A DNA stretch of 60,898 nt from Desulfobacterales bacterium (GTDB lineage Bacteria; Desulfobacterota; UBA8473): NCBI GenBank assembly GCA_016209225.1, contig JACQWO010000010.1:1-60898 (forward strand), written 5' to 3'. The translations under genes and the position numbers were made by a program. The notes beneath the pieces were generated by a model. It was not told where the DNA came from and ran no database searches. It saw nothing but the letters and a program-made list of their open reading frames with translations. Positions 23,749 through 51,533 of the stretch are shown here, one piece after another. Each line of letters starts with the position of its first letter. Positions within the stretch are counted from its first letter, which is position 1.

Positions 23749-23772
23749 AACAGCGCACTTAAGTGCGCTGTT
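23749..23772. repeat. Small palindrome, AACAGC..CTTAAG..GCTGTT family
   Basis: A perfect 24-base palindrome between murG and murC with AACAGC ends and a central CTTAAG. Two close relatives lie at 24932-24960 and 28938-28973. Confidence 0.85.
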
Positions 23773-23776
23773 GTCG

Positions 23777-24856
23777 CTATGAACCCAAAAGCTCATAACA
23801 ACTGTCAACTATATCCTCGGCAGCACCGGGTTTACCCAGTTTGCGGGCATTCTCTCCCATCATGGAAACAGCTATAGGATCAGCAGTCAAATCAATTATC
23901 ATCTCCGCCAGATTTTCCCCGGTCAAATCTCCGTTTAAGACCATTTTAGCAGCCCCCTTATCCAGTAATACCCTTGCATTTATCTCTTGATGATTGTCGG
24001 CTGCAAAAGGATAAGGGATTAATACCGATGATTTACCATAGAGTGTCAACTCCGAAATAGTAGTAGCTCCCGCCCTGCATATAACAAGGTCGGCATCTCT
24101 ATATACTGCTGCCATATCATCGATGAATCCCATTACCTCTGAAGTAAACCCTTTTTCTTTATATACCTGACAAACCCATTGATAGTCTACTTCTCCCGTC
24201 TGGTGTATAATATTTAAAGATTCCCTCACAGGTATAAGATAGTCCAGAGCATCCAGTATCTTTTCATTCAGCGAATGTGCTCCCTGGCTTCCACCCAAAA
24301 TAAGCAGGGTAAACTTTCCTTTATGTTCTTTACCCTTTAAGGAACCATCTATTAATTTCTTCCTTATGGGGTTACCGGTGAATCGGGCTTTCTTCATCGA
24401 TGAAAAATACCTGGTCTCTGAAAATGAAATGAATATACTGTTTACAAACCTGGCCAAAATCCTATTGGTAATTCCAGGGATGGTGTTCTGTTCACAGATT
24501 ACTCTTTTAATTCCTCTTAATAAGGCTGCAAAGACCACTGGAGCCGAGGCATATCCCCCCATACCAATAACCAATTCCGGATTATACTCTTTTATCAGAG
24601 CTATAGATTGATATATACTTTGGGGGATAAGAAACAGATTGCACACCTTTTCTTTGAAGGACTTTCCCTTTAGCCCTTTAATATCTATACTCCTGAGTCC
24701 AAAACCCTCCCTTGGGATAATCTTTGATTCTATGCCCCCTCTTGCCCCAACAAAGACGCAGATACTTTCGGGGTCTCTTCTCTTAAATTCCTCTGCTAAG
24801 GCTATACCAGGGAAAAGATGACCGCCCGTACCTCCTCCAGCAACTAAAACCCTCAT
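23777..24856 (-). CDS. murG: UDP-GlcNAc transferase MurG
   Basis: MurG transfers GlcNAc to lipid I, giving lipid II, on the inner face of the membrane. The 359-residue GT-B enzyme begins with the conserved loop VLVAGGGTGGHLFPGIALAEE; ILGGSQGAHSLN and VICRAGATTISELTLYG supply the nucleotide-sugar site. An open frame extends to 24877, but AAGGA seven bases before the ATG at 24856 favours the shorter form. The gap upstream is filled by a nested MITE-like element ending 13 bases before the start codon. Confidence 0.96.
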   Translation of the reverse strand: MRVLVAGGGTGGHLFPGIALAEEFKRRDPESICVFVGARGGIESKIIPREGFGLRSIDIKGLKGKSFKEKVCNLFLIPQSIYQSIALIKEYNPELVIGMGGYASAPVVFAALLRGIKRVICEQNTIPGITNRILARFVNSIFISFSETRYFSSMKKARFTGNPIRKKLIDGSLKGKEHKGKFTLLILGGSQGAHSLNEKILDALDYLIPVRESLNIIHQTGEVDYQWVCQVYKEKGFTSEVMGFIDDMAAVYRDADLVICRAGATTISELTLYGKSSVLIPYPFAADNHQEINARVLLDKGAAKMVLNGDLTGENLAEMIIDLTADPIAVSMMGENARKLGKPGAAEDIVDSCYELLGS

Positions 24857-24869
24857 CGAATTATCCTTT

Positions 24870-25046
24870 GTAACCACTCAGCCACCGATCTACGCTGATC
24901 ATCACTGATATTTTTTCTTTTATTATCATATAACAGCGGGCTTAAGCCTGCTGTTGTAATTCTATCTGCGTTTACCTTGTTGAATAGGGTTCCCTACGGG
25001 AAATTCAACAGGGTGAATCTGTGTGAATCTGTGGCTGAATAGTTAC
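24870..25046. mobile_element. MITE-like element with two nested palindromic insertions
   Basis: The element is bounded by 16-bp inverted ends (GTAACCACTCAGCCAC and its near reverse complement GTGGCTGAATAGTTAC). It is the reverse complement of the 100-bp element at 51343-51442, interrupted twice: a 44-base hairpin insert (about 24974-25017, with GTTGAAT/ATTCAAC arms) and a palindrome of about 32 bases (about 24931-24962). It fills the whole ftsW-murG gap. Confidence 0.85.
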
Positions 25047-26146
25047 TATCCTTTTTTAATCTGTGAGGATATGTTTAATAAGATTCCCAAACCTATCAGA
25101 TTAAGTACCAAGGACGATCCACCATAGCTAATGAAGGGAAGAGGAATTCCCTTTGTTGGCAGAAGTCCTACAGTAACCCCCATGTGTATGGTTGCCTGTA
25201 ACCCTATTAATACAGTTATGCCAAGAGCCAGATAAGTGCTGAACATATCTGAAGAGCGAATGGCTGTACTGATACCTCGATAGACAAATATGAAAAAAGC
25301 AGCCAGGATCAGAAGTATCCCTACTAATCCCAACTCTTCACCAATGACGGAGAAGATAAAATCTGTATGAGGCTCCGGAAGGTAGAATAGCTTCTGTTTT
25401 CCCTCCCCCAAACCCCGTCCAAATACCCCCCCTGAACCAAAGGCATAAAAAGACTGGATAATCTGGAACCCTGAATCAGAGGGATCCCCCCATGGATTTA
25501 GAAATGACAGGATTCTTTCACGACGATACGCTATATTTGCTATTAGAAAGTAAACGATAGGGGCAGCCGACAATAATATCAGGGAAAGATGAGACAATCG
25601 TACACCTGCGGCAAACAACAATGTAAACATAATAGCAGCGATACATATTGATGTCCCCATGTCGGGCTGTTTAATGATTAAACAGAGCATAATACCGGTA
25701 ACAATAAGGTGGGGAAGAATCCCTACGGAAAATTTTTTGATATTCTTCTCCTTATTTGCCAGAGAGGATGCCAGGTAGATTATCAGGGCAAGTTTGGCAA
25801 ATTCAGAGGGCTGGATAGAAAAAGGGCCCATCTTCAACCACCTTGTTGATCCCCCAACTTTAACTCCGATTCCTGGTATTAATACCGCAATCAAAGAGAG
25901 TAAACTCATCCCCAGAATTAGATATGCTATCTTCCTGTAAAGTTGATGATCTATTCTTGCCACACCAATCATCATTAAAATACCAACTACTGCAAATAGA
26001 ATCTGTTTTTTTAAAAAAAAGTATCCGTCATTAAACTTTCCTGATGCCATTATGGCACTAGAGCTATACACCATAACAATACCAGTCCCGACCAGCAATA
26101 AAGTGAAAAGGAGCAATATGTAGTCAAACCCTGACTTTCCTCTCAT
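25046..26146 (-). CDS. ftsW: Lipid II polymerase FtsW (SEDS family)
   Basis: FtsW is the septal peptidoglycan glycosyltransferase of the SEDS family, working with FtsI. The 366-residue protein has about ten membrane segments, KMGPFSIQPSEFAKLALI in the second third, and the C-terminal signature KGIPLPFISYGGSSLVLNLIGLG. The stop codon directly abuts the MITE-like element downstream. Confidence 0.96.
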   Translation of the reverse strand: MRGKSGFDYILLLFTLLLVGTGIVMVYSSSAIMASGKFNDGYFFLKKQILFAVVGILMMIGVARIDHQLYRKIAYLILGMSLLSLIAVLIPGIGVKVGGSTRWLKMGPFSIQPSEFAKLALIIYLASSLANKEKNIKKFSVGILPHLIVTGIMLCLIIKQPDMGTSICIAAIMFTLLFAAGVRLSHLSLILLSAAPIVYFLIANIAYRRERILSFLNPWGDPSDSGFQIIQSFYAFGSGGVFGRGLGEGKQKLFYLPEPHTDFIFSVIGEELGLVGILLILAAFFIFVYRGISTAIRSSDMFSTYLALGITVLIGLQATIHMGVTVGLLPTKGIPLPFISYGGSSLVLNLIGLGILLNISSQIKKG

Positions 26147-28899: not shown

Positions 28900-29032
28900 A
28901 ACCGTAACCGTTCACGGTTCTCAGTTTACCGTTCACGGTAATTACAACAGCAGGCTTAAGCCCGCTGTTATTATATAAAGCTTGAAGCATTTTTGCCAAC
29001 TGTTAACTGCAAACCGTAAACTGTGAACGGAT
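28900..29032. repeat. Repeat block between murF and mraY with inserted palindrome
   Basis: Outer arms (CCGTAACCGTTCACGG.. and ..AAACCGTAAACTGTGAACGG) match the arms of the ftsA-ftsZ element, including 31 identical bases at about 28998-29028. Between them sits an unrelated palindrome (28938-28973) plus about 25 more bases. Confidence 0.8.
28938..28973. repeat. Small palindrome, AACAGC..CTTAAG..GCTGTT family
   Basis: ACAACAGCAGGCTTAAGCCC followed by GCTGTTAT. It is the exact reverse complement of the copy nested in the MITE-like element at 24870-25046, including the flanking GTAAT. Confidence 0.85.
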
Positions 29033-29054
29033 ACCCTTTATCTCTGTGTAGTCT

Positions 29055-41242: not shown

Positions 41243-41429
41243 AGTCGTAAAAAGTCAACAATCAGACGGCACAGTAAAAAGCTCCAGATGCAAGGCTCGC
41301 AAATCCGAAGGAATGAGGCGTACTTACCTGTACGCCGCAATGACTGAGGATGCAGCGGAACGCCGCAGATGGACTTTTGACTGAGGATGCAGCGGAACGC
41401 CGCAGATGGACTTTTTACGAAGCCGTCAA
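41243..41429. mobile_element. MITE-like element with internal 37-bp tandem duplication
   Basis: The left end has CGTAAAAAGTC (about 41249-41259) and the right end GACTTTTTACGAAGCCGTC (41409-41427), forming the inverted termini. Inside, a 37-base unit beginning TGACTGAGGATGCAGCGG occurs twice in tandem (41341-41377 and 41378-41414). It starts at the stop codon of the mutase gene. The ends match the element at 26162-26290. Confidence 0.8.
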
Positions 41430-49923: not shown

Positions 49924-50051
49924 GTAACTATTCAGGTAGGCACAAAGGCACAGAGCACCAAAGGCACAAAGTAGGAAAAAACAACGAAACGACCCTGCTT
50001 CGCTCTGCTTTGTGCCTATATGCCTTTGCCGCTTTGTGCCTGATTTGTTAC
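49924..50051. mobile_element. MITE-like element with GTAAC ends and GCACAAAG repeats
   Basis: Ends are GTAACTATTCAGG (49924) and CCTGATTTGTTAC (50051), imperfect inverted repeats. The interior holds AGGCACAAAGGCACAGAGC and an inverted GCTTTGTGCCTATATGCC arm, so most of the 128 bases can fold on itself. The termini resemble the elements at 50160, 51343 and 24870. Confidence 0.75.
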
Positions 50052-50159: not shown

Positions 50160-50254
50160 GTAACTGCTCGGGTGGATAGGCTGTAGGCAGTTAACCTATA
50201 GGAGAAAATTATGCGCGACCAACAGCCTTTAGCCTAAACAACCTGAGTAGTTAC
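50160..50254. mobile_element. MITE-like element, 95 bp
   Basis: Inverted ends GTAACTGCTCGGGT and ACCTGAGTAGTTAC; the next inner arms TAGGCTGTAGGC and GCCTTTAGCCTA also pair. It lies 20 bases upstream of the ROK kinase start codon. Confidence 0.75.
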
Positions 50255-51281: not shown

Positions 51282-51342
51282 TTCAGGATTTTTTCTTTAC
51301 ATGAGAATAACAACTGTGATATACAGTATAACTTCATTTTTT

Positions 51343-51442
51343 GTAACTATTTAGCCACAGATTCACACAGATGAACGCAGATATGATAATAAAAGAAAAA
51401 ATATCAGTGATGATCAGAGTAGATCGGTGGCTGAGTAGTTAC
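51343..51442. mobile_element. MITE-like element, 100 bp, uninterrupted copy
   Basis: Ends GTAACTATTTAGCCAC and GTGGCTGAGTAGTTAC are inverted with two mismatches. The sequence between them matches, in reverse, the element in the ftsW-murG gap minus the two insertions there, so this is the simpler form. Confidence 0.85.
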
Positions 51443-51533
51443 CATTTTTTTCGTCCAACAAGGTGGCTTAATGGGTCAACAAGAGCTAATCGTTTGATAT
51501 CCAGTCCTCTAATTTTAGGGCAAAGTACAAAAA

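Follow-up and report, generated by a model that had tools for sequence, protein, structure and literature searches.

This study indicates that the 177-bp sequence separating murG from ftsW within the mur operon is probably a non-autonomous IS66-type transposon, whose ancestor, a GxxExxY gene cassette, was shortened by deletion, gained two palindromic sequences, and moved as one compound unit. The window, by which we mean the whole stretch of 60,898 nucleotides analysed, is contig C48 (1-60898) of a 3.1-Mb draft genome of 95 contigs, and its nearest relatives by MurG are the environmental assemblies WOUX01 and PFIF01. L134 and L219 are one and the same locus, as are L148 and L374, and each was counted once. 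The element belongs to a MITE family whose parent is a nuclease-gene cassette rather than a transposase gene, and many unrelated interiors are carried by the same short terminal sequence. The palindromes nested in it do not appear to jump by themselves here, as their dispersal mostly looks like hitch-hiking together with local duplication of arms. Moreover, the abundant orphan family GxxExxY becomes linked to mobile cassettes bounded by inverted repeats, which offers a testable route to its function. The features of the operon junction and of the second copy used for comparison are listed below.

23777 to 24856, minus strand: murG, with its start ATG at 24856 and its ribosome-binding site AAAGGA kept via the duplication.
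24862 to 24869, unstranded: first copy of the 8-bp target-site duplication (TSD), TATCCTTT, which reads AAAGGATA on the minus strand and holds the murG ribosome-binding site.
24870 to 25046, minus strand: compound type-A MITE of 177 bp, with terminal inverted repeats (TIRs) GTAACTATTCAGCCAC.. and ..GTGGCTGAGTGGTTAC in the minus-strand reading.
24930 to 24963, minus strand: AACAGC..CTTAAG..GCTGTT palindrome insert, net 33 bp, with edges AATTAC/ATAT common to the R2 repeat at 28940-28978.
24972 to 25017, minus strand: hairpin insert, net 44 bp, CCCTGTTGAATTTCCCGTAGGGAACCCTATTCAACA with its edges, present only in this MITE lineage.
25046 to 26146, minus strand: ftsW, its protein length unaffected by the insertion and its stop codon now TAG.
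25047 to 25054, unstranded: second copy of the 8-bp TSD, TATCCTTT.
51343 to 51442, plus strand: type-A MITE of 100 bp, the internal-deletion form, with TSD CATTTTTT at 51335-51342 and 51443-51450.

A first-pass annotation of this DNA had described the element as MITE-like and as filling the ftsW-murG gap, and both descriptions hold, the former through the 8-bp TSD and the empty orthologous sites of the congeners. The ftsW-murG site is clean and empty in congeners G001 and G004, where the TATCCTTT target is single, and the site of the 100-bp copy at 51343 is empty in G001 and G003. Before the insertion, ftsW would have ended in ..AAA AAA GGA TAA, with the murG ATG a few bases on. Because AAAGGATA was duplicated with the ribosome-binding site kept, and because the TA of the second TSD copy together with the first G of the element makes a new TAG stop, the ftsW and MurG proteins are unchanged; both the last residue of ftsW and the murG ribosome-binding site are preserved despite an insertion of 177 bp. 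As a separate observation, the target AAAGGATA, which resembles a ribosome-binding site, is shared by another locus (L012, G000:C11:45871-46125), which carries a type-A element in this genome, its place being taken in congener G003 by one of type B (L367).

The same annotation had read the element as the reverse complement of 51343-51442 apart from two palindromic inserts, and the comparison bears this out, with net lengths of 44 and 33 nt. In reverse complement, positions 24870-24931 are 97% identical to 51381-51442, and positions 25017-25046 are 97% identical to 51343-51372. Read on the minus strand, the hairpin site of the 177-bp form is ACACAGAT, the insert TCACCC..AAGGTAA and then ACGCAGAT, whereas the 100-bp form has only GA between ACACAGAT and ACGCAGAT, so that 46 nt replace 2. 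At the palindrome site, the 177-bp form reads GCAGAT, the insert AGAATTACAACAGCAGGCTTAAGCCCGCTGTTAT and then ATGATAAT, against GCAGATATGATAAT in the 100-bp form. Both inserts are palindromic additions within the lineage of the element. The 177-bp form also retains an AGA which is absent from the 100-bp copy, and it is therefore improbable that the former descended from the latter. The 100-bp form is itself mobile and has moved at least twice, as it is found with two different TSDs, CATTTTTT and CCTCATTT.

Copies of the compound were detected at three unlinked sites, namely C48 and C41 of this genome and one site in congener G002, and they are 96-98% identical; the C41 copy (175 bp) agrees with that of the window at 171/178 positions and the G002 copy (177 bp) at 174/177. 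The presence of the compound with both palindromes at several sites indicates that it moved as one unit. The G002 copy adjoins a pyruvate-kinase-like gene (named by eye), and the corresponding site in our genome (L005 compared with L133) harbors a 131-bp palindrome-free MITE with a GxxExxY interior, a difference for which gene conversion between MITE copies suggests itself as the simplest reading.

It was also considered that the palindromes are ordinary local products, such as transcription attenuators or hairpins in the RNA that selection maintains in the ftsW-murG operon, and this we regard as extremely improbable. As RNA, the 177-bp element does fold far better than its shuffled versions (-64.6 against -33.0 kcal/mol, z -8.5), but the fold of the plain 100-bp copy is no less unusual (z -9.8), owing to its TIRs, and the same compound is present at unrelated loci. 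A terminator or attenuator role was rejected since the hairpins are not followed by a U-run (a T-run in the DNA) and the 100-bp copy folds as well. The Rfam search of the element gave no match at threshold, the best being STnc50 with 20.7 against 55 bits (E=0.58), and an Rfam RNA identity was rejected because this match is sub-threshold only.

The type-A MITE family accounts for 39 match pieces in our genome. Copies with both ends number about 20, measure 90-320 bp and vary in the amount of interior retained, the longest of them keeping pieces of a GxxExxY gene (TIGR04256; PD-(D/E)XK). One intact type-A parent was found, L105, a 458-bp cassette that has these ends and the 8-bp TSD AATTTTCT, located in G061, a genome of a different family of the phylum. 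Its ORF starts with an ATG 29 nt from one end, stops with a TAG inside the other end, and is a full-length member of the GxxExxY family (TIGR04256 / PF13366 PDDEXK_3), as it covers positions 1-117 of 117 of PF13366 (E=3.7e-39) and scores 130.9 bits with TIGR04256. The left part of L105 shows 94% DNA identity to the copy in our genome, and such identity across genomes of different families suggests that cassettes of the L105 type may have spread horizontally. At the first catalytic Asp, which is kept in 60/61 relatives, L105 has Ala while its ExK is kept; the conserved D..ExK set of an active nuclease is thus incomplete in L105, which may already be ageing instead of serving as the active source.

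With longer copies at hand, and a complete 458-bp cassette bearing the same ends, the 100-bp form is recognized as an internal-deletion derivative, and its role as ancestor was rejected because it is without the interior which the longer copies and the 177-bp form keep. The first-pass annotation had taken it as the clean original, and had named its being a deletion, or the lack of further copies, as outcomes telling against its account; the first of these applies in part, and further copies do exist (about 20 of the MITE and about 54 of the palindrome). In the reading that we prefer, the ancestor would have been a 458-bp single-gene cassette with GTAACTATTCAG ends around one GxxExxY ORF of the PD-(D/E)XK fold, and internal deletions of it would have given rise to the MITEs of 90-320 bp.

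These copies display the structure of MITEs, with lengths of 90-320 bp, TIRs of at least 12 bp, no transposase ORF, a fixed TSD of 8 bp (17 perfect cases) and empty orthologous sites in the congeners. MITEs usually originate from insertion sequences that lost the transposase, though the structural definition does not demand it, and the parent found in this study is a GxxExxY cassette and not an insertion sequence. To our knowledge, GxxExxY genes have not been known as the interior of cassettes parental to MITEs. The Chunjie MITE of Geobacter uraniireducens (Chen et al. 2008) is likened to our family by its description in a review, which mentions neither a nuclease-cassette parent nor nested palindromes for it (PMC10969869).

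The shared ends extend well beyond type A. The sequence GTAACTNNTCAG occurs 223 times in our genome, as compared to 3 times for the reversed control, and perfect 8-bp TSDs were noticed in 17 two-ended elements, with about half of the type-A copies having no clear TSD. The elements with common ends and 8-bp TSDs carry unrelated interiors, assigned to types A-E, and some are nested in one another (L010, L014, L122 and L132). The window itself harbors two more of them.

49924 to 50051, plus strand: element of type B, which shares the 12-bp TIR and has a different interior (GGCACAAAGGCACAGAGC..).
50160 to 50254, plus strand: element of type D, which also shares the TIR (GGTGGATAGGCTGTAGGC..).

Of the 148 genomes searched, most have these ends at a level near background; they abound in congeners G001-G003 and in several further families. 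Short elements bounded by the same ends with perfect 8-bp TSDs were found in G144 and G116, and the same TIR with 8-bp TSDs was observed in other families, e.g. TTTTAGTG, TAAAAATT, ACTGATTA and TATTATTT.

The GTAACTA ends, singled out by the earlier annotation as a guide to the transposase, did lead to a family, as they recur on IS66 elements of the phylum. The IS66 family, which includes single-ORF members of the ISBst12-like group, has GTAA-type ends and an 8-bp target duplication, and its representatives in this phylum end in GTAACTATTCAG. L256 is an element of 1730 bp with one transposase ORF and the ends GTAACTATTCAG/GTAACTATTCAC, for which no TSD match was seen; L258, from a genome that also holds type-A elements, has GTAACTATTCAG at its right end, its left end not being found; and L257 has the ends GTAACCCTTCAG and the 8-bp TSD GGTTGAGC. 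The ends and the 8-bp TSD length of the MITEs equal those of IS66 (L256, the right end of L258, and L257), IS66 being the one transposase family that was compared for the GTAACTAYTCAG ends. In contrast to IS66, the MITEs are without any transposase remnant, and what lies between their ends is a GxxExxY gene or some other, unrelated sequence. Given that IS66 transposases of the phylum share the ends of the MITEs, it is likely that IS66 mobilises these MITEs, which its transposase would move in trans with duplication of 8 bp of target. The one IS66 gene found in our genome has diverged ends (GTAACTTCTCACG) and IS66 was not seen in the four congener drafts, and for this reason the role of IS66 as mobiliser is one that we infer.

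Across the phylum, a flanking inverted repeat (local score of at least 14) was detected at 35 out of 69 GxxExxY loci (L086, L087, L105 and L282-L350), against 2 of 200 control segments (1%), a control weakened by being drawn from the window and fourteen MurG loci rather than from matched genes, and against 3% of cross-paired flanks. These inverted repeats are made of quasi-repeats of roughly 10 bp (for example CCACGGAACACACGGAA and CCACAGAGGCACAGAG), and GTAACT-type outer ends were displayed only by L105 and L332. One may speculate that GxxExxY genes are generally one-gene cassettes bounded by inverted repeats, some of which were captured by IS66-type ends and turned first into transposons and later into MITEs, the nuclease having some part in the spread of the cassettes, a generalization that we consider unlikely as it stands.

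Going further, the GxxExxY protein might help to move its own cassette, which would then be a self-contained nuclease-gene transposon and not a satellite of IS66. The gene takes up the whole cassette, starting and stopping at the TIRs, the inverted repeats exceed the control by far, and the PD-(D/E)XK fold class of L105 is found in TnsA too. Nevertheless, we judge this to be very improbable, because the cassette ends and the 8-bp TSD match IS66, elements that share these ends around unrelated interiors are just as mobile, no obvious target duplication was seen by eye at the other GxxExxY loci with flanking inverted repeats, and the intact copy L105 is without one catalytic Asp.

With regard to the two palindromes, the 44-bp hairpin was found in four copies in 3/39 genomes (C48 and C41 of our genome, G002 and G003), and every hairpin locus inspected lies inside this type-A MITE lineage. 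As it was never seen outside this lineage in the 39 genomes, a dispersed repeat was rejected, and independent movement of the hairpin is not supported. In congener G003, the copy L122 contains the hairpin but no AACAGC palindrome, and of the two it was therefore probably the hairpin that this MITE lineage gained first.

The AACAGC palindrome has a different distribution, and its other occurrences in the window are as follows.

23749 to 23772, plus strand: third AACAGC palindrome, of family R4 (TAGTGGAATGTCCCYTTA-palindrome-GTCGCTAT), in the murC-murG gap.
28908 to 29036, plus strand: R2 repeat element, GTAACCGTTCACGG..palindrome..GTGAACGGATAC, of 129-131 bp, in the mraY-murF gap.
28946 to 28969, plus strand: AACAGC palindrome inside the R2 element, at mid-element.

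The window has three occurrences of the palindrome AACAGCNNNCTTAAGNNNGCTGTT (consensus ACAACAGCNNGCTTAAGCNNGCTGTTGT), at 23749-23772, 24932-24955 and 28946-28969, where 0.01 is expected, and the 3.1-Mb genome has about 54 as compared to 0 for the reversed control pattern, which excludes chance. The copy formerly reported as standing alone at 28938-28973 in fact sits in the middle of the R2 element. By eye, 52 palindromes were grouped: about 25 lie in R2 elements (GTAACCGTTCAC..GTGAACGGATAC), of which the copies L035, L045 and L046 have perfect 8-bp TSDs, 4 in type-A MITEs, 3 in type-E elements, 5 in repeat R3 and 4 in R4, and the remainder are single. About 32/52 are within other TIR elements, and the single palindromes have no TSD and are for the most part retained at corresponding positions in the congeners. 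In the comparison with congeners outside these MITEs, the palindrome was kept at L076, L066, L029, L057, L065, L068 and L062 (with a rearranged edge in the last) and divergent at L052, and L053 was uninformative as its orthologue is without one flank; the palindrome at 23749 was kept in G003 and G004, and the locus is bare in G001. The variation among palindromes consists of exact duplication of one arm plus spacer (e.g. +16 nt, TGCGCTGTTGTCGCTA, in L076 versus L227), and the arms co-vary (AAG/CTT, GGG/CCC and GCA/TGC), a pattern that would fit the copying of one arm from the other during replication.

The view that the palindromes are tiny mobile units, as has been proposed for the small dispersed repeats of cyanobacteria, and transposed into a clean 100-bp MITE draws on the presence of about 54 copies in at least five sequence contexts of one genome, on their occurrence at two different positions in type-A MITEs (L007/L011 versus L009/L015) as well as within elements of type E (L064 and L069), and on the locus that is bare in G001. 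Against it, the palindrome has no target duplication or constant boundary, it is retained at orthologous sites in most congener comparisons, the flanks AATTAC/ATATAA came into the MITE together with it, the hairpin is confined to the type-A MITE, and the AGA makes descent from the 100-bp copy improbable. We find this view quite unlikely: the palindrome is indeed dispersed, but self-movement is not supported. The flank bases AATTAC/ATATAA, which the palindrome of the 177-bp element has in common with R2, point to copying from an R2-type repeat instead of insertion of a bare unit. Our preferred reading is that the palindrome and its flanking bases may have been copied from such a repeat, most simply by template switching in replication, and that the compound would then have travelled as a unit, with the ftsW-murG junction among its targets. 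Elhai et al. reportedly described in 2008 small dispersed repeats (SDRs) of cyanobacteria that lie inside other repeats and were exposed by comparison of copies. Our case shares with SDRs the tiny repeats within repeats revealed in this way; however, the palindrome sites are here mostly kept among congeners and the hairpin is limited to one MITE lineage.

Another reading takes the palindromes as REP-type sequences moved by the RAYT/Y1 transposases of the genome, which has 13 matches to Y1_Tnp (PF01797; RAYT/IS200-like). Similar to REPs and REPINs with RAYT (PMC3116915, PMC3733652), they are short extragenic palindromes found in clusters or arrays, and REP sequences are known to occur in clusters and to receive insertions (PMC3116915). 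However, most REPs are defined by a GTAG or CGTC tag (PMC3733652), whereas the palindrome here is a perfect 24-mer dyad with no loop and neither tag, and no doublet (REPIN) architecture was seen, which makes this reading more improbable still.

Some further observations concern the palindromes and their surroundings. Arrays of half-units (AACAGCNNNCNNAC) precede the final full palindrome at L052, L060, L062, L065, L037 and L058, and the half-unit boundaries vary by 2-3 bases, a variation that simple slippage leaves unexplained. The type-C interior (L199:601-788, R2 elements) carries MKIERFEDIEVLQLACELTRKVYRLTNK, which resembles the start of the 23S IVS (S23) protein. A kinship of R2/type-C with the 23S IVS/S23 four-helix-bundle gene, noticed by eye, is not claimed, as PF05635 matches weakly (E=0.2) and no NCBIfam match was obtained. 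The mraY-murF gap (window 28908-29036, L375) is a recurrent insertion region, occupied by the R2 element in our genome as well as in G002 and G003, and by an element of type B in G004. Finally, a perfect tandem duplication of 37 nt was noticed at 41341-41414 of the window.
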